Origin: a virus
IMG/VR virus record: IMGVR_UViG_3300042448_001704
Span: 1 to 64,000 of that record
Length of the DNA: 64,000 bases
Reading direction: 5' to 3' (one strand)
The notes beneath the pieces are model-generated. The model had not been told where the DNA came from. It ran no database searches and saw only the letters and a list, made by a program, of their open reading frames with translations. The position numbers were made by a program, and so were the translations under genes. Of the stretch, positions 15,261-62,587 are shown one piece after another (within the stretch, counting starts at the first letter, position 1; every line of letters begins with the position of its first letter).

Positions 15261-15917
15261 ATGTTAGCAAATACATATCAAAACCTCTACGAGCCATTCG
15301 CTCCCGAAGTAGAAAAAAACCTTAGCAAAGGCGGAGCAAGACTTACTTACATTCCAGTAAGCGAAGTGATTACTCGTCTTAACAAAGTTCTTGGACTTGA
15401 CTCATGGTCATTCAACATTTTGTCATGCTCTCGTGACGCAATTGATCCCGATTACATCGTTGCCCATGTTCGCCTTATGTGGCACACAGATGCAACTCGT
15501 CCAGATTCGTGCATTATCCGCGATGGATTCGGTGGTCAAAAGATTAAGCGCACAAAAACCGGCGACATTGTTGACCTTGGTGACGAAATGAAGGGTGCTG
15601 TTTCTGATGCACTCAAGAAGGCCGCACAAACGCTTGGTGTTGGTCTTTATCTTGCTCGCAGTGAAGAAGCGCTGAGCGCCGAAGAGCCACCAGAACCAGT
15701 AATTGATTCAGCCATTGTGGAACTATGGGACAACTTTGTTCAAGTATCAAAAGGTCTTGACACAGCAGGAAAAACACAACTTGGAAGTTTCTGGAAAACA
15801 TACGCTGGTTCTCGTCCGAAGCCAACAAAACAAACCGCAACAGTAAAAGATTTAGAAGAACTAATTGGCGAATGCCTGCGTATCTCTTTTAGTGGAGCAC
15901 CATCTACTGATGAGTGA
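15261..15917 (+). CDS. Rad52/Redβ-type single-strand DNA annealing protein
   Basis: 218 residues. The N-terminal domain shows the Rad52/22 family pattern: YIPVSEVITRLNKVLGLDSWSF, an IVAHVRLMW strand, DGFGGQ, and LGDEMKGAVSDALKKAAQTLG with the GVGLYLA end. These proteins anneal complementary single strands in phage replication and recombination. The C-terminal 70 residues look flexible and may bind a partner. The stop overlaps the start of the nuclease gene by 8 nt, a typical annealase plus exonuclease pairing. Confidence 0.88.
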   Translation: MLANTYQNLYEPFAPEVEKNLSKGGARLTYIPVSEVITRLNKVLGLDSWSFNILSCSRDAIDPDYIVAHVRLMWHTDATRPDSCIIRDGFGGQKIKRTKTGDIVDLGDEMKGAVSDALKKAAQTLGVGLYLARSEEALSAEEPPEPVIDSAIVELWDNFVQVSKGLDTAGKTQLGSFWKTYAGSRPKPTKQTATVKDLEELIGECLRISFSGAPSTDE

Positions 15918-16680
15918 GTTTATTCTTAAACCACCTCCGTATCTTTCTCCATCTTCAATTTCAACATTTCAACAATGTCCGCTGAAGTATAAGTTTTCTA
16001 GAATTGATGGTCTTCAAGATCCGCCAACGGAAGCAACTCTTCGTGGCAACTTTGTTCATAGCATTTTAGAAGATTTATACTCTTTGCCTAAAGATGAACG
16101 AACCCTAGATAGGGCAAAGTTGGTTGCTAAAGAATGGTGGGAGATGGAATATGCCGAAAAGATTGCCCCCTATGTAAAGGGAGACGAGGCCGTACGACTC
16201 TTTAGATGGAGTTCGTGGTGGTGTGTTGAGAACCTGTTTGCAATGGAAGACCCAACAGCGCTTCATTTTGATGGAATTGAAACCGAACTTAACGACACTA
16301 TTGATGGTGTTGCCATCAAGGGCTTCATTGACCGATGGAGAAATACTGATGACGGAATTATTGTCGGTGATTACAAAACCGGAAAAACACCATCTCCTAG
16401 ATATCGTGATGATAAGTACTTTCAACTCCTTCTCTACGCTTATGTGTTGGAAAAACAACTAAATCAAACCGTAAAAGAAATTGAACTACTGTTCATTAAA
16501 GACGCAGTTCTTCTCTCAAAAACAGTTACAGATGAAGATAGAGAAAATGTAAGAAGCACGGTGGTGCACATTCGTAAAGAAATTGACTTACGGTGTGTCT
16601 CTGGTGAATTTGAACCAATCAAGCACAGATTATGTGATTGGTGTAGCTATAAAAAAATATGTCCAGAATGGAATAAATAA
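15910..16680 (+). CDS. PD-(D/E)XK exonuclease of Cas4/RecB type
   Basis: 256 residues from the ATG at 15910; an upstream in-frame Met lies inside the Rad52 gene. It has LSPSSISTFQQCPLKYKFSR (first iron-sulfur Cys), GNFVHSILEDLY, VVGDYKTGK (catalytic Asp and Lys) and a Q..LYAY helix. It ends with a Cys cluster CDWCSYKKIC, so four Cys can hold an Fe-S cluster as in Cas4/AddB-like nucleases. It likely resects DNA ends for the neighbouring annealing protein. It overlaps both neighbours (8 nt and 1 nt). Confidence 0.9.
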   Translation: MSEFILKPPPYLSPSSISTFQQCPLKYKFSRIDGLQDPPTEATLRGNFVHSILEDLYSLPKDERTLDRAKLVAKEWWEMEYAEKIAPYVKGDEAVRLFRWSSWWCVENLFAMEDPTALHFDGIETELNDTIDGVAIKGFIDRWRNTDDGIIVGDYKTGKTPSPRYRDDKYFQLLLYAYVLEKQLNQTVKEIELLFIKDAVLLSKTVTDEDRENVRSTVVHIRKEIDLRCVSGEFEPIKHRLCDWCSYKKICPEWNK

Positions 16681-17777: not shown

Positions 17778-18914
17778 ATGCCAAGACAGAGAATGTTTCT
17801 AGATATGAGTTGCGTTGATGCGGCCCGTCAACGAATAAGGCACATATATGATACTTTTGATACTGTTTGCGTTCAGTTTTCTGGAGGAAAAGATAGCACA
17901 GCAGTGCTTTATTTGGCTAAAGAAGTTCATGAAGAAAGAGGACTCGGGCCAGTCAAAGTGATTTTCCGAGATGAAGAAATGGTAAGCCCTAAGGTTGTTG
18001 AGTTCGTAGAAAAAGTACGAGATTATGACTGGATTGACATGGAATGGTACTGCCTTCCGGCTGGTCAAGAAATTTGGATTTTGGGTCGCCGTGAATACTG
18101 CTTACTGTGGTCGCAAGCTCGGGCAGATAGAGGTCTTTTGGTTAGGGACATCCCTAAAGGTGCAATCACCGCTAAACACTTTGGCATTGATCCGTATTTT
18201 CCAGCGCCAGAAGGTCACGACTATTACACAATGCAGGGAAAAATGGGAAGAACTGCGTTTCTTAACGGTGTCCGTGCAAATGAGTCAATGATTAGATACA
18301 GATCGTGTGTTCAGAAACTCCACGAAAACTACATCGTTGCGCCTTTCAAGGTTAAGAAGTCAATACCTCTAAGGCTTGCAAAAGTAATTTACGACTGGAC
18401 AACTGATGATGTCTTGAAATTCATCACAGAAGAACACGGTGCTGAGTACTGCGAGTATTACGACCTTGCTTCACTTACTGGAAGCAATACGAGAATTGGA
18501 ATACCTTTGCATTCTGTAGCGATACGGAGAATTGGTGATGTTGTTTCAACTGAACCTGAATTTTATGACAAGCTTTTTGATTGTTTTCCACAAATAGATG
18601 CACAGCGTCGGTGGTGGCCTGAGTTCAACATTGAGAAACTTATCGCCTCTTACGCCAAAAATGGTTATGACGGGGTTCGTGATTGTATTGAGCAAAATAT
18701 GCTCACTCCTGGAATCAAAAATGCAGCGTATAAATTTGCTGGAGAATTTAGGAAAAAGCAAACTAATGATCCTTTTGGGTTTCCAACAGATCATTTGCTT
18801 CGCATTTTGTTGCTTAATGATTTTCAGGCAAACTCTCCTTCGCCTGTCGGTCCAGGAACAAGAGCGCACACGATGAGAATGATTGCTAATGAACAAATGG
18901 AAGAAAATTTATGA
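17778..18914 (+). CDS. PP-loop ATPase of the PAPS-reductase family, IbrA-like
   Basis: 378 residues. The PP-loop is FSGGKDSTAVLYLA (about residue 34). FRDEEMVSP and NGVRANESMIRYRS are the other conserved blocks of the IbrA type of phosphoadenosine-phosphosulfate reductase relatives. YDWTTDDVLKFI follows. Such enzymes adenylate or activate a substrate at the PP-loop; the substrate of IbrA relatives is not established. The next gene overlaps by 4 nt and encodes a ParB-like protein, giving the IbrA/IbrB gene pair known from Escherichia and from other phages. True sulfate assimilation is unlikely because no other pathway gene is present. Confidence 0.88.
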   Translation: MPRQRMFLDMSCVDAARQRIRHIYDTFDTVCVQFSGGKDSTAVLYLAKEVHEERGLGPVKVIFRDEEMVSPKVVEFVEKVRDYDWIDMEWYCLPAGQEIWILGRREYCLLWSQARADRGLLVRDIPKGAITAKHFGIDPYFPAPEGHDYYTMQGKMGRTAFLNGVRANESMIRYRSCVQKLHENYIVAPFKVKKSIPLRLAKVIYDWTTDDVLKFITEEHGAEYCEYYDLASLTGSNTRIGIPLHSVAIRRIGDVVSTEPEFYDKLFDCFPQIDAQRRWWPEFNIEKLIASYAKNGYDGVRDCIEQNMLTPGIKNAAYKFAGEFRKKQTNDPFGFPTDHLLRILLLNDFQANSPSPVGPGTRAHTMRMIANEQMEENL

Positions 18915-19456
18915 AAATTGTATTTATGTCTAACTCTGCTTTAAAGCCAGCTGATTGGCGAACAACTTATTTGTTAAAACCAGATTTTAATTTATTGCGT
19001 GAATCAATGATGGATTATGGGTGGGCGCAACCAATTGTCGTTCAGGAGAAAACTTCTACAATTATTGATGGTTTTCACAGATGGGCGATAGCTCAAGAAG
19101 ATAAGTTCATCAAGGTTCACGGAGATCAAGTTCCTGTTTATTTTAAAGACATTGATGATATTGATTCAATGATTATGCATATAAGACTCAACAGAGCAAG
19201 GGGTTCAATTCTTGCTAAAAAAATGTCAGACATAATTATTGATATTTGTGTAACTGGAAAATACGACACAGAAGAACTATTGACACTTTTGGGTCTCACC
19301 GACGATGAACTTGACTTAATGCTTGCGCCCAATTTAATTAAGCATCGCAAGGTTCCTGAGCATAAGTATTCACGAGCCTGGATTCCTATTGAGGCACCCA
19401 AGATTGATGAAAAAAATGTACCTAAATTTGAACGACCACCTAATTTAGATAGATAA
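18911..19456 (+). CDS. ParB-like protein, IbrB-like partner
   Basis: 181 residues, start overlapping the previous stop (ATGA). The ParB N-terminal core is seen as DYGWAQPIVVQEKTS then IIDGFHRWAIA (about residue 52), close to the DGxHR signature. VYFKDIDDID and IRLNRARG follow, matching the ParB/sulfiredoxin fold and its nucleotide-binding motif. It is not a partition protein: there is no ParA and no long DNA-binding region. Coupling to the PP-loop gene suggests that the two work on one substrate. Confidence 0.85.
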   Translation: MKIVFMSNSALKPADWRTTYLLKPDFNLLRESMMDYGWAQPIVVQEKTSTIIDGFHRWAIAQEDKFIKVHGDQVPVYFKDIDDIDSMIMHIRLNRARGSILAKKMSDIIIDICVTGKYDTEELLTLLGLTDDELDLMLAPNLIKHRKVPEHKYSRAWIPIEAPKIDEKNVPKFERPPNLDR

Positions 19457-19510
19457 ATACTTTACAGTCATTTTATGGTATCGTTGAGGCAAGTCCGATC
19501 GGAGGATTTT

Positions 19511-19771
19511 ATGCCCAACTCCACAATGACACGCGATATTGAGCTGTTCACACGTCCAGGCGGCGGAAGAGAACAAAGAATAATTGAGCGCCCTCTCTAC
19601 ATCAATGGACGGCGTGTTCCCGGAAACGCAGAAGCCTATAACCGTACCCCAGGTACTGCCCCAGGCCTAGTTGCCGCAAGACGAGCAGGCGAAATTGGCG
19701 GAAGACGAGGAAGACCAGGCCGTGGTGCCGCTGCAGGAGCAAGGGCTGCTGGTAGAGCAGTAAGAAGATAA
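19511..19771 (+). CDS. Small basic Arg/Gly/Ala-rich protein
   Basis: 86 residues from the ATG at 19511, directly after GGAGGATTTT, a strong ribosome site; an earlier start at 19475 lacks one. The C-terminal half is a run of Arg, Gly and Ala (GGRRGRPGRG). It is highly basic and probably binds DNA or RNA, or fills the head. It lies alone between the IbrAB pair and the neck genes. Confidence 0.6.
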   Translation: MPNSTMTRDIELFTRPGGGREQRIIERPLYINGRRVPGNAEAYNRTPGTAPGLVAARRAGEIGGRRGRPGRGAAAGARAAGRAVRR

Positions 19772-19812: not shown

Positions 19813-20679
19813 ATGCTTGTAAGCGTTTCACAATTAGCAACATATATGGATATTCGGTTCAGTAACAGGCAGGAAACCGCCGCTGAATATGTCCTTGAAG
19901 GTCTACAAAGCGAACTTGAGTCCTACCTGCGTCGTCCTATAGAGCTAACGGATTTTGAAGAGACTTACGTTCTTGAATCAAACTTTGTTGGCGTACCGAT
20001 GTCGTCATTTTTCTCAAACGAAACCTCCGCATCAGATGACTCTATTGGGATGGTCACATACGCTCAACCTCCCCAGACTATCTATATTCGCAATTCTCCA
20101 ATTGTTTCAGTACAAAAAGTAACTGTTTCTAATCTGAATGAAACTGGTCGTCTTCTTGGCGAAGCAGTAATAAGAAATGCAAATATTACTTCGGTAACTG
20201 TTGCTGGAACAACTGTCACATATACGGCTTCTAACCACGGTTTTACTGTCGGGCAAAAAATTAAAGTGAGCGGTTTGAGTACTTCTGCTCTAAATCTTTC
20301 ATCTAATGTTATTTCTTCTGTTGCTACCAACACTTTCACGGTGACACAGAGTGGTCTTACTGCGGGAACTTTTGCTCAAACTGGAACGGTTGTTGCATTA
20401 GGTAATGATTACACCGTGAGAAGATTTGGAATTGACTGTTATCGTGGTTTTGCCAACGACATCATCACCATCTCCTACAGAGCAGGTTTAGCCGGAGATG
20501 GAATAAAGGTTTTTCAGTTAATGATATTAAGAGCAGCTTCAAGAGAAATGCAGAATATGCATGACGACGTGGTTGGTATTAAGGATTTGAATCCTCGTGA
20601 AGTTGCACTTCAGGAAACAGGATTTTTGGAAAAAGAACTTGCTGCGGTTAAAAGATGGCGAAGAACTAGGGTCGCATAA
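19813..20679 (+). CDS. Head-tail connector (adaptor) protein with inserted beta domain
   Basis: 288 residues. The N-terminal helical core (VSQLATYMDIRFSNRQ, VLEGLQSELESYLRRP) and the C-terminal helices (LMILRAASREMQNM, EKELAAVKRWRR) fit the gp6/Ad1-type connector. A beta-rich insert of about 75 residues lies between (TVAGTTVTYTASNHGFTVGQ, then TFTVTQSG). The position first in the tail-joining series supports the call. The protein closes the portal and links it to the tail. Confidence 0.75.
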   Translation: MLVSVSQLATYMDIRFSNRQETAAEYVLEGLQSELESYLRRPIELTDFEETYVLESNFVGVPMSSFFSNETSASDDSIGMVTYAQPPQTIYIRNSPIVSVQKVTVSNLNETGRLLGEAVIRNANITSVTVAGTTVTYTASNHGFTVGQKIKVSGLSTSALNLSSNVISSVATNTFTVTQSGLTAGTFAQTGTVVALGNDYTVRRFGIDCYRGFANDIITISYRAGLAGDGIKVFQLMILRAASREMQNMHDDVVGIKDLNPREVALQETGFLEKELAAVKRWRRTRVA

Positions 20680-46164: not shown

Positions 46165-47670
46165 ATGAATAACAAAATATCTTTTGCAATAGTTGGTTCT
46201 GGCACAGCAGGATTAGTAGCCGCATTAATGCTAAGAAAAGCTTTTAGAGATGCAGACATAACCGTTATCTCATCTTCTCAAATTGGGATAGTTGGTGTTG
46301 GTGAAGGATCAACAGAGCATTGGAAAATGTTTATGGAATCTTGCGATATTCCAGTAGAGGAACTAATTGTAAATAGTTCAGCGACCCATAAAAATGGAAT
46401 ACGATTTGAAAACTGGACTAATCATACTCCCGACTATTTCCATAGCATTGGTGGAATAGATGAAATTTTTGCCAACGGACTTTATGCATCCTATATGGGT
46501 ATGATTGAAAATAAACAATTAATTACTAATCAGACATCAAGTGTTGGATTGGTAACTAACAAAATTGGACGCAACAATATACACAAAACAGTAAATCAAT
46601 TTCACTTTGATACATATCAACTTAACGACTATTTAATGGGTATATGTTTTAATAGAATGATTAAATTTGTTGAAGGAAATGTAGATTCGGTTAATCTAGA
46701 TTCTGAAAATGGAACAGTCAAATCAGTCAATGTGAATAACGGAACCATGGTTGATGCTGATTTTTGGTTTGACGCAAGTGGTTTTTCCCGCGTAATCATG
46801 AATTCCCTAGAGAATACTGAATGGGAATCTTTTTCTCCTTACCTATTGGCGGATTCTGCAATCGCATTCCCAACAGAGTCTGACCCAAATGGCCAGATAC
46901 GACCATACACACGCGCCCGTGCGGCATCTTCTGGTTGGATGTGGGAAATACCAACACAAGAGCGGCGGGGAAACGGTTATGTATTTTCGTCTGCGCACAT
47001 ATCTGTAGATAAAGCAATAGAAGAAGCTGAGAAGATTAGTGGATACAAGGTTAAAGACAATCCACGAACATTCAAATATGATGCTGGTTATCTAAAAAAT
47101 CAGTGGGTTAAGAATTGTGTTGCCGTTGGTCTTGCAGGTGCTTTTGTTGAGCCGCTAGAAGCGACAAGTATTGGTAGCACGATAATTTTAATGAAGTCTT
47201 TAATGCAAAGCCTTTCTTCATATACTAAAGAGTCTGAAAAAATGCAGACTGCATACAACAAGATGACTAAAGAAACAATGAGAAACATACTAACGATGAT
47301 AAGACTTCATTATGTTTCCGATAGAAGAGATACTCAATTTTGGATAGATCAATCAAACATGCCAATCAATGATGAATTGCAAGAGCTGATTGATTTATGG
47401 TCAGAGCGTCCACCATCTCGGTATGATTCATACAATCAACAACATCTAATGTTTCAAACCCCTCATCTGGCTCATGTAATGCAAGGACAAGGACTAATAC
47501 CTCCTGAACCTTCCTCAATCGCCCTAGACAGACTCAACATAAGAGATATTGTACGTGCGGAAATTGATAAAATCAGAAATTCACGACACGCACATGAACT
47601 TATTGACCATAGAGTAGGGTTAATGGAAATCAAACTTATTGACGAGGAGTACAGCAATGGAATTCAATAA
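46165..47670 (+). CDS. Flavin-dependent tryptophan-type halogenase
   Basis: 501 residues, usual length. FAD site GSGTAG at 11-16, then GVGEGS at 44-49. A Lys in THKNGIRFENW (Lys76) matches the position that forms the chloramine in PrnA/RebH. The halogenase signature WxWxIP is present as WMWEIP at 258-263. VGLAGAFVEPLEATSIG near residue 320 is the late FAD motif. It would use FADH2, O2 and halide to halogenate an aromatic or other substrate. A flavin reductase is not encoded nearby. A viral halogenase (VirX1, from a cyanophage) is known, so a phage location is not unprecedented. Its stop overlaps the next gene. Confidence 0.93.
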   Translation: MNNKISFAIVGSGTAGLVAALMLRKAFRDADITVISSSQIGIVGVGEGSTEHWKMFMESCDIPVEELIVNSSATHKNGIRFENWTNHTPDYFHSIGGIDEIFANGLYASYMGMIENKQLITNQTSSVGLVTNKIGRNNIHKTVNQFHFDTYQLNDYLMGICFNRMIKFVEGNVDSVNLDSENGTVKSVNVNNGTMVDADFWFDASGFSRVIMNSLENTEWESFSPYLLADSAIAFPTESDPNGQIRPYTRARAASSGWMWEIPTQERRGNGYVFSSAHISVDKAIEEAEKISGYKVKDNPRTFKYDAGYLKNQWVKNCVAVGLAGAFVEPLEATSIGSTIILMKSLMQSLSSYTKESEKMQTAYNKMTKETMRNILTMIRLHYVSDRRDTQFWIDQSNMPINDELQELIDLWSERPPSRYDSYNQQHLMFQTPHLAHVMQGQGLIPPEPSSIALDRLNIRDIVRAEIDKIRNSRHAHELIDHRVGLMEIKLIDEEYSNGIQ

Positions 47671-48441: not shown

Positions 48442-48467
48442 GCAATAAAGAAATATAGTTGTTTATT

Positions 48468-49049
48468 ATGAATGAAATTTTTCCATCAATCTGGGTCTAT
48501 AGCCAGATATTTCAAAATTCGCAGCTAGTAATTGATTCGCTAGAAAAAGCGATAGATGAAAATGTTTTACTTAATTGGGTTTATGCAAGTACTGGAAATC
48601 ATCAAACTGATGGAAGTGTGAAAAACCCTTACAGGAGCAATAAGACCATCTCTCTGCCAAACGATATTAATACTGCCGATGGTTCCGGAAATCTTGATTC
48701 ATTTATTTTTAATCAGGTAACAGAACTAACTAATGAATATTCGTCTCATTTTGGTTTAGGGGGAATGAAAGACGAAGGATATTCTGTTTTAAAATATGTT
48801 GATGGGGCGGAATATAAACAACATTTTGATTGTGGCGGGGATCACAAAGATCGAGTTGCTTCAATGGTTCTGTATTTGAATGATGATTACGAGGGTGGGG
48901 AACTTGAGTTTCCATTTTTTGGAATCAAATACAAGCCCTCTGTCGGTGATGTGATTTTTTTCCCTTCTTCCTATACTTTTGCCCATATTGCACATCCAGT
49001 TACGAGTGGAACAAAGTATGCTCTCGTAACATGGTTGGCCTATGAATAA
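48468..49049 (+). CDS. 2-oxoglutarate/Fe(II) dioxygenase, prolyl-4-hydroxylase type
   Basis: 193 residues from the ATG at 48468. The iron ligands appear as HFD (His119, Asp121) in EYKQHFDCGG and His173 in FAHIAHPVTSGTKYALVTW, with Lys182 for the 2-oxoglutarate. DDYEGGELEFP is the usual strand between them. Such enzymes hydroxylate Pro, Lys or other residues, or small molecules. It overlaps the second dioxygenase by 8 nt, so the two are co-expressed. Confidence 0.9.
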   Translation: MNEIFPSIWVYSQIFQNSQLVIDSLEKAIDENVLLNWVYASTGNHQTDGSVKNPYRSNKTISLPNDINTADGSGNLDSFIFNQVTELTNEYSSHFGLGGMKDEGYSVLKYVDGAEYKQHFDCGGDHKDRVASMVLYLNDDYEGGELEFPFFGIKYKPSVGDVIFFPSSYTFAHIAHPVTSGTKYALVTWLAYE

Positions 49050-49623
49050 TGTAGACACATTCCGCCAAAACAATTTTGTCTACCTTGGGAATATTATTTC
49101 ACAAGATCTTGTTTCTGCCATTTCTGGATACGCCCTCCTTCAGGAAACATACGCTTTTACTCCTGACACTGAACAGGTAATAAATGCCCACGCTGTGTAT
49201 TCAGACTTTTTAATGGAGTCACTATTGGTTCAGTACAAACCGATAGTTGAAGAAGCAACTGGTTTGTCCCTTCTGCCAACTTATTCTTTTTATAGGGTTT
49301 ACAGAAGAGGTCAAGAACTGGTTCCACATATTGATAGACCGGCTTGCGAAATATCAATGAGTGTCTGTTATGACTTTGACTATATGGGTAAAGATTACGA
49401 CTGGCCACTATATATGGAAGACGATCCGCTGGTTATGAAACCGGGCGATGCGGCTATTTACCGCGGTATGGACTTAAACCACTATCGGCCAATATTTAAT
49501 GTTCCTCAAAACTCATACCATATTCAGGCTTTTTATCATTATGTTGATGCAAACGGTCAATATGCCGAATATGCATATGATAAAAACAAAAACTCTCATC
49601 TGAAAGTAATAGAAACAAAATAA
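49042..49623 (+). CDS. Second 2-oxoglutarate/Fe(II) dioxygenase
   Basis: 193 residues. Iron ligands are His96 and Asp98 in PHIDRPACEISMS and His147 in MDLNHYRPIF; Arg149 may hold 2-oxoglutarate. KPGDAAIYRG before the distal His is a common strand. The family resembles dioxygenases of cyanophages and bacteria rather than the prolyl-hydroxylase neighbour. Substrate unknown. Confidence 0.85.
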   Translation: MNNVDTFRQNNFVYLGNIISQDLVSAISGYALLQETYAFTPDTEQVINAHAVYSDFLMESLLVQYKPIVEEATGLSLLPTYSFYRVYRRGQELVPHIDRPACEISMSVCYDFDYMGKDYDWPLYMEDDPLVMKPGDAAIYRGMDLNHYRPIFNVPQNSYHIQAFYHYVDANGQYAEYAYDKNKNSHLKVIETK

Positions 49624-62511: not shown

Positions 62512-62587
62512 TGGTGCCTTCGGTTGGACTTGAACCAACGACCTGCGGATTAGAAGTCCGTTGCTCTATCCGCTGAGCTACGAAGGC
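62512..62587 (-). tRNA. tRNA-Arg (anticodon UCU), CCA encoded
   Basis: On the minus strand the cloverleaf is complete. Acceptor GCCTTCG pairs with CGAAGGC, the D-arm is GCTC...GAGC, the anticodon stem is CGGA/TCCG with loop CTTCTAA giving anticodon TCT, and the T-arm is GTTGG-TTCAAGT-CCAAC. The discriminator A is followed by CCA. It reads AGA codons, which look frequent in the phage genes. Confidence 0.95.

Follow-up and report, generated by a model that had tools for sequence, protein, structure and literature searches.

A co-inherited IbrA/IbrB-like gene pair in a contractile-tailed virus, with an invariant ATP site and a possible role in DNA modification

IbrA-like and IbrB-like proteins, such as those encoded side by side in the virus described here, act as a functional unit, because their genes are paired, occur together even when 42-69 kb apart, and encode proteins whose distances co-vary beyond phage kinship. 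The ATP site of IbrA is fixed throughout the family without any fixed cysteine. Our preferred reading, held tentatively and at somewhat short of an even chance, is that IbrA and IbrB might form an obligate two-protein, ATP-dependent enzyme which modifies nucleic acid by non-sulfur chemistry, most likely the DNA of the phage itself during replication and recombination. The pair is widespread, being carried by phages of Flavobacterium, Streptococcus, mycobacteria and freshwater actinobacteria as well as by E. coli K-12, and annotations usually mislabel it, either as a PAPS reductase with a partition protein or as an auxiliary metabolic gene for sulfur. The literature searched contained no biochemical study of IbrAB. 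With co-inheritance at tens of kilobases, a fixed ATP site without a fixed cysteine, and the same subfamily in laboratory phages (Phlyer, grown on M. smegmatis), the question becomes directly testable.

The gene pair and its co-inheritance

The stretch of DNA analysed, hereafter the window, comprises positions 1 to 64,000 of IMG/VR record IMGVR_UViG_3300042448_001704, a linear virus contig of 88,775 bp. Terminase, portal, head maturation protease and tail sheath genes are present in this record of an uncultured, contractile-tailed virus. Relatives of the tail sheath were found only in Arthrobacter, Gordonia and Brevibacterium phages, while the nearest relatives of the terminase are from Gordonia phages, and, therefore, the host is probably an actinobacterium.

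The preliminary description had reported two open reading frames with a 4-nt overlap and the motifs SGGKDST and IIDGFHRWA at 17778-19456, and all of these are found there (Table 1). Its assignment of the two genes to an IbrA/IbrB-like pair in a phage is borne out by the structural genes of the record, by matches of the first protein to PF01507 (PAPS_reduct; E 3e-10, above the curated cut-off) and to phrog_2302 over residues 1-351 (E 2e-71), and by a match of the second to phrog_2159 (E 1.5e-31). The recombination genes mentioned in that description are also present, with the Rad52-like and RecB/Cas4-like genes upstream of the pair and the large terminase still further upstream; the start codon of the nuclease gene is uncertain, the mechanical open reading frame beginning at 15865. 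No ParA gene (PF13614) was found in the record, which may be incomplete, in a search that recovered 14 of 14 controls.

Table 1. Coordinates of the IbrA/IbrB-like pair, its neighbours and accessory cupins (window positions, except in the last two rows, which use locus positions)
Feature	Position	Strand	Basis
IbrA-like PP-loop ATP-pyrophosphatase, phrog_2302 type, without DUF3440, 378 aa	17778..18914	+	PF01507, phrog_2302, AlphaFold
PP-loop motif FSGGKDST, residues 34-41	17877..17900	+	sequence; SGGKDS 99-100% over 107 divergent relatives
IbrB-like ParB/Srx-fold protein, 181 aa: NTP-binding domain, ParB-type helical HTH region, tail YSRAWxPxE	18911..19456	+	phrog_2159, AlphaFold, Foldseek
ParB box II motif IIDGFHRWA, IbrB residues 51-59	19061..19087	+	D53, G54, R57 in 121/121 relatives
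ATGA stop/start overlap, 4 nt, coupling the ibrA-like and ibrB-like genes	18911..18914	+	sequence; same spacing in 43/125 viral loci
Rad52/22 family, Rad52/Erf-like single-strand annealing protein; neighbour, outside the IbrAB unit	15261..15917	+	PF04098 E 2.5e-12
RecB/Cas4-like PD-(D/E)XK exonuclease (PDDEXK_1); neighbour	~15913..16680	+	PF12705 E 8e-37, phrog_69 E 1.7e-33
Ectoine-synthase-like cupin, Mycobacterium phage Gaia fusion	L100:5308-6207		
Ectoine-synthase-like cupin, Planctomycetota MAG	L254:9317-9685		

Several other genes of the window were recorded. A small arginine-rich basic protein is encoded 3' of IbrB (19475-19771), as it also is in two relatives (L018:6297-6710 and L031:7158-7652). 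A tRNA-Arg gene (anticodon TCT) is on the minus strand at 62512-62587. The virus also encodes a tryptophan halogenase (46165-47670; PF04820 E 2e-105, phrog_2928 E 3e-100), after which lie 2OG-Fe(II) oxygenase-like genes at 48459-49049 and 49042-49623.

When viral contigs were scanned with a single sequence, at least 262 stretches with IbrA relatives came back, from which 80 were kept, mostly 70-100% identical; a profile scan reached deeper into the viral relatives, and 80 loci were obtained by scanning bacterial genomes. IbrB lies directly downstream of IbrA in 125 viral loci, most of them with genes overlapping or less than 60 nt apart, and the -4 gap seen in the window is the commonest spacing. 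Among the bacterial loci, an IbrB-type gene adjoins IbrA or sits one gene beyond it in 77 of 80. A further 31 viral loci have room for IbrB downstream of IbrA and lack it there. An IbrA clade without IbrB was considered for these loci and rejected in favour of gene separation, since all four tested contigs of more than 50 kb carry IbrB elsewhere, at about 61, 68, 69 and 42 kb from IbrA (contigs G007, G013, G014 and G015, in contig coordinates). Exactly one strong IbrB match was present in each of the 15 tested IbrA-bearing contigs of at least 54 kb, the window record included.

The phylogenetic profiling proposed in the preliminary description gave near-equal counts when totals and numbers per host genus were compared: the IbrA of phage Phlyer finds 215 and its IbrB 219 of 50,697 records of isolated phages, and the two counts agree for almost all host genera, with IbrA/IbrB counts of 90/90 for Flavobacterium, 55/55 for Mycobacterium, 21/21 for Streptococcus, 12/14 for Arthrobacter and 6/6 for Bacillus. 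Moreover, IbrA and IbrB protein distances are correlated over 46 viral loci (0.75), and a partial correlation of 0.64 persists after correction for a nearby gene (the family of 19813-20679), a value reached in none of 2000 permutations.

Conserved residues and predicted folds

The residues conserved at 99-100% among 107 divergent IbrA sequences are SGGKDS (S35-S40), R19, D65, E67, W111, R166, E169, R173, D206, D211, Y228 and R239, and this set was confirmed on 56 rows. No cysteine is invariant among the 107 relatives; the best conserved, C92, is kept in 88% and replaced by Ala or Gln elsewhere. As well, the C-terminal ECGxH cysteine motif of PAPS reductases is absent from the window protein, the last cysteine of which is residue 303 of 378.

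In PDB searches, single-sequence queries of either protein were uninformative and profile queries informative. The nearest IbrA matches were FAD synthase (2e-9) and the ATP sulfurylase CysD (2e-7), both of which are AMP-transferring enzymes. An AlphaFold model of IbrA (pLDDT 90) resembles FAD synthase, CysH, CysD and, lower in the list, TilS, as well as tRNA thiolases; these matches are partial, covering the ATP core only with a TM-score of about 0.3-0.4 by query length, and the helical C-terminal half has no template. Residues 13-82 also match the DndC (E 4e-6) and BrxP (E 1e-7) models, with a DndC match in 49 of 56 family members. No tRNA-binding domain was recognised in a domain search of the members.

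For IbrB, the Pfam ParB_N match is weak and below the cut-off (E 0.002), while the AlphaFold model (pLDDT 86) returns Noc/ParB (E 1e-7) and KorB in Foldseek over about 160 residues, the helical HTH region among them. The positions S32, G37, D53, G54, R57, P75 and N94 are invariant in its relatives, D53, G54 and R57 being present in 121 of 121, and the tail motif with an almost invariant W157 (117/121) is kept across phyla. ParB-fold proteins have been reported to bind CTP, ATP or GTP, and one DndB-like protein binds both ATP and GTP (PMC12704722).

Accessory genes and candidate functions

The genes found beside the pair differ between clades and are optional, and they are therefore no more than suggestive. 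An SNF2-type helicase lies directly upstream in 17 bacterial loci and within two genes in 18, and it is also found, by Pfam, in Streptococcus and Flavobacterium phages. In several bacteria, a GNAT gene separates IbrA from IbrB or immediately precedes IbrA (Pfam-confirmed in locus L204). Ectoine-synthase-like cupins (PF06339) occur in two settings, as a gene of their own in the middle of the pair in a Planctomycetota MAG (E 8e-36) and as a fusion with IbrB in Mycobacterium phage Gaia (E 1e-32). In Arthrobacter and Bacillus phages, the pair comes with small SAM-methyltransferase genes. In 14 loci of related freshwater viruses, an open reading frame of 167 aa sits exactly between IbrA and IbrB (L018:5191-5694, L031:6135-6638 and 12 more); it has no Pfam match and only a weak PDB match to the nuclease Can2 (E 0.46), and its pattern E-x5-D-x6-E-x-K (FEKDIIFDW..KCLEVKSS) is typical of PD-(D/E)XK nucleases.

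Of 75 non-redundant viral loci, 36 have a second ParB-like gene immediately before IbrA, and a match was present in all ten tested records of more than 50 kb; none was found in the window record. It was considered as a third component and rejected, as its relatives occur in 372 phage records, many of which (84 from Gordonia, for example) come from hosts without a listed IbrA. The upstream ParB-like proteins of viral loci L019-L177 have 244-293 aa (e.g., L162:5143-5991) and a conserved C-terminal motif Y.I.FD...QQ.QW..F.KWL, and in Gordonia phages related ParB domains sit within genes annotated as DNA methylases. In Streptomyces sp. MP131-18, the gene of a distant IbrA-like PP-loop protein, here lacking IbrB, directly follows one for a class II glutamine amidotransferase (PF13522), an arrangement (L180:7383-9308) resembling a split asparagine synthetase.

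Regarding a mechanism, we infer contact between IbrA and IbrB, DNA as the target, an adenylation step and the nucleophile that follows it. Judging from fold and motifs, IbrB, a short ParB/Noc-like protein, would bind nucleotide and DNA and bring IbrA to the DNA. IbrA, given its invariant site and nearest relatives, would hold ATP in the PP-loop and, with release of pyrophosphate, adenylate the target on the oxygen of a carbonyl or phosphate group; a nitrogen or another non-sulfur nucleophile might then displace AMP and leave the modification in place, which some genomes may complete with an accessory GNAT, ectoine-synthase-like cupin or methyltransferase. We favour DNA modification because of the pairing and co-divergence, the conserved ATP site, the adenylyltransferase relatives, the ParB fold and the DNA-gene context, and DNA would be the target because of the SNF2 helicase, the PD-(D/E)XK-like open reading frame and the Rad52 and RecB neighbours. 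However, neighbours of the SNF2, Rad52 and RecB kinds are commonplace in phages, and the E. coli K-12 pair YbdN/YbdM lies beside metabolic genes with no mobile-element gene; both points count against this reading, as do the clade-dependent, optional nature of the accessory genes, the lack of specificity of the second ParB, the partial structure matches of IbrA and the transcriptional activation reported for eib genes. Precedents exist for ParB-fold proteins beside modification enzymes: the ParB-fold protein DndB accompanies the PP-loop protein DndC (PMC10853773), and the ParB-like ATPase DpdB accompanies DpdA (PMC12839542), both in DNA-modification systems. In a more specific and distinctly speculative version, which we consider unlikely, IbrAB could be the core of an undescribed non-sulfur DNA hypermodification, in which a PP-loop adenylyltransferase would be placed on DNA by a ParB-type NTPase, the adenylate would give way to an amine (perhaps an amino acid) as happens when lysidine is made, and GNAT, ectoine-synthase-like cupin or methyltransferase partners would be optional finishers.

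The main rival, rather unlikely in our estimate, is transcriptional co-activation, with IbrB as a ParB/Noc/KorB-like promoter binder and IbrA as an ATP-dependent switch that turns on late or moron genes. The only phenotype reported for the family, as far as the citing accounts convey it, is that prophage eib genes are activated in E. coli (Sandt 2002, cited in PMC6008420 and PMC4541368). The Noc, ParB and KorB matches, the last to a repressor, are consistent with such a role, as is the description of DndB as an ATP-dependent repressor (PMC12704722). On the other hand, an invariant ATP-pyrophosphatase active site exceeds the needs of a switch, the optional GNAT, cupin, methyltransferase and nuclease partners are hard to fit, and eib activation could itself be secondary to a DNA mark. 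Such enzyme partners might instead point to small-molecule chemistry, in which IbrA would adenylate or amidate a metabolite or nucleotide and IbrB, as an Srx/SerK-like NTP enzyme, would act on the same molecule for counter-defence or metabolic takeover. This is an unlikely reading too: the small-molecule substrates of FAD synthase and CysD, the cupins between or fused to the pair, the GNATs of several bacteria and the glutamine amidotransferase beside a distant IbrA-like protein would suit it, but the IbrB model keeps a predicted ParB helical DNA-binding region, and the helicase and nuclease genes nearby suggest nucleic acid instead.

The preliminary description had suggested DNA or tRNA chemistry with a possible link to sulfur or adenylation. 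Adenylation stands as the best-supported chemistry, with FAD synthase and CysD as the top PDB profile matches, whereas the sulfur or phosphorothioate part was not borne out and the tRNA part gained no specific support. A TilS-like modification shielding host or phage tRNAs from anticodon nucleases appears improbable; the fold matches include TilS and tRNA thiolases and the window has one tRNA-Arg gene, but these matches reflect just the common PP-loop core, no tRNA-binding domain was recognised, and ParB-type partners belong to DNA systems (PMC10853773, PMC12839542). Phosphorothioation or base thiolation of DNA, with IbrA as a minimal DndC and IbrB as a minimal DndB, is very improbable. The DndC and BrxP matches and the common ParB-fold partner would favour it, yet the DndC match is confined to the ATP-binding core, and DndC requires Fe-S cysteines and a cysteine dyad (PMC10853773), whereas IbrA has no invariant cysteine. 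A cysteine desulfurase was found in 0 of 15 IbrA-bearing contigs, with 14 of 14 controls recovered, although a host enzyme could substitute; DndE was likewise found in 0 of 15, in a search where no control genome passed the cut-off. Least credible is a true PAPS reductase serving as an auxiliary sulfate-assimilation gene, as many annotations have it: PF01507 matches and CysH is among the top folds, but IbrA lacks the ECGxH motif and conserved cysteines, and strict pairing with a ParB-fold protein would be senseless for sulfate reduction. Taken together, the invariant ATP site, the lack of an invariant cysteine and the lack of a desulfurase, together with the DndE result at its limited value, argue against phosphorothioation, thiolation and PAPS reduction alike.

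Comparison with known systems

Compared with DndC/DndB, the pair shares the PP-loop core and a ParB-superfamily partner, but invariant cysteines, a cysteine desulfurase and, in the search without a control above the cut-off, DndE are missing. FAD synthase (with its PAPS-like domain) and CysD are the best PDB profile matches and top folds of IbrA, alignable in the ATP core only and with no known link to FMN or sulfate. IbrB shares with the Noc/ParB CTPases the fold including the helical HTH region, but with 181 aa it has no room for a ParB-type C-terminal dimerisation domain, and its box II reads DGFHR rather than GERR.

Like E. coli IbrAB and K-12 YbdN/YbdM, the window pair joins a PP-loop protein to a ParB partner in genes that overlap, and the invariant catalytic residues as well as the DGFHR and NRARG motifs are shared. 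YbdN contains DUF3440 (PF11922; E 3e-32), as do 27 of 56 sampled family members, whereas a Pfam search found no such match in the window IbrA, which therefore departs from E. coli-type IbrA in one defining Pfam feature. In a 124-row tree, made with a quick method and having some long branches, the window protein falls in a supported clade (SH-aLRT 100) with viral contigs, proteins of Mycobacterium, Arthrobacter, Bacillus and Rhizobium phages and one Aminicenantes MAG contig, while YbdN/DUF3440-type proteins are all in the other clade, at about 20% identity between subfamilies. The earlier naming as IbrA-like thus stands, for a protein in a sister subfamily of the classical one but with the same gene arrangement, and by sequence the window IbrA belongs in full to the phrog_2302 type of phage protein.

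The phage IbrA/IbrB pair itself was already recognised, having been annotated in Flavobacterium phage FCL-2 (PMC4541368), in glacier phages (PMC4490671) and in an Asgard virus (PMC8813620), and the annotation notes of Phlyer gp4/gp5 read 'IBrA' and 'IBrB'; the present analysis contributes the finding that both genes persist when unlinked, the cysteine test, the division into subfamilies and the set of accessory genes. The phrog_2302-type pairs, from Mycobacterium cluster B, Arthrobacter, Bacillus and Rhizobium phages, comprise gp4/gp5 of Mycobacterium phage Phlyer, gp6/gp7 of Arthrobacter phage Salgado, gp79/gp83 of Bacillus phage 055SW001 and gp89/gp90 of Rhizobium phage L338C. All four have a second ParB-like gene upstream, and a small methyltransferase follows IbrA in the Bacillus phage and IbrB in the Arthrobacter phage, whereas neither gene was found in the window record. 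Salgado IbrA likewise has no DUF3440 match, and all four pairs belong to the clade of the window pair, with 30-38% identity and the same order of IbrA then IbrB.
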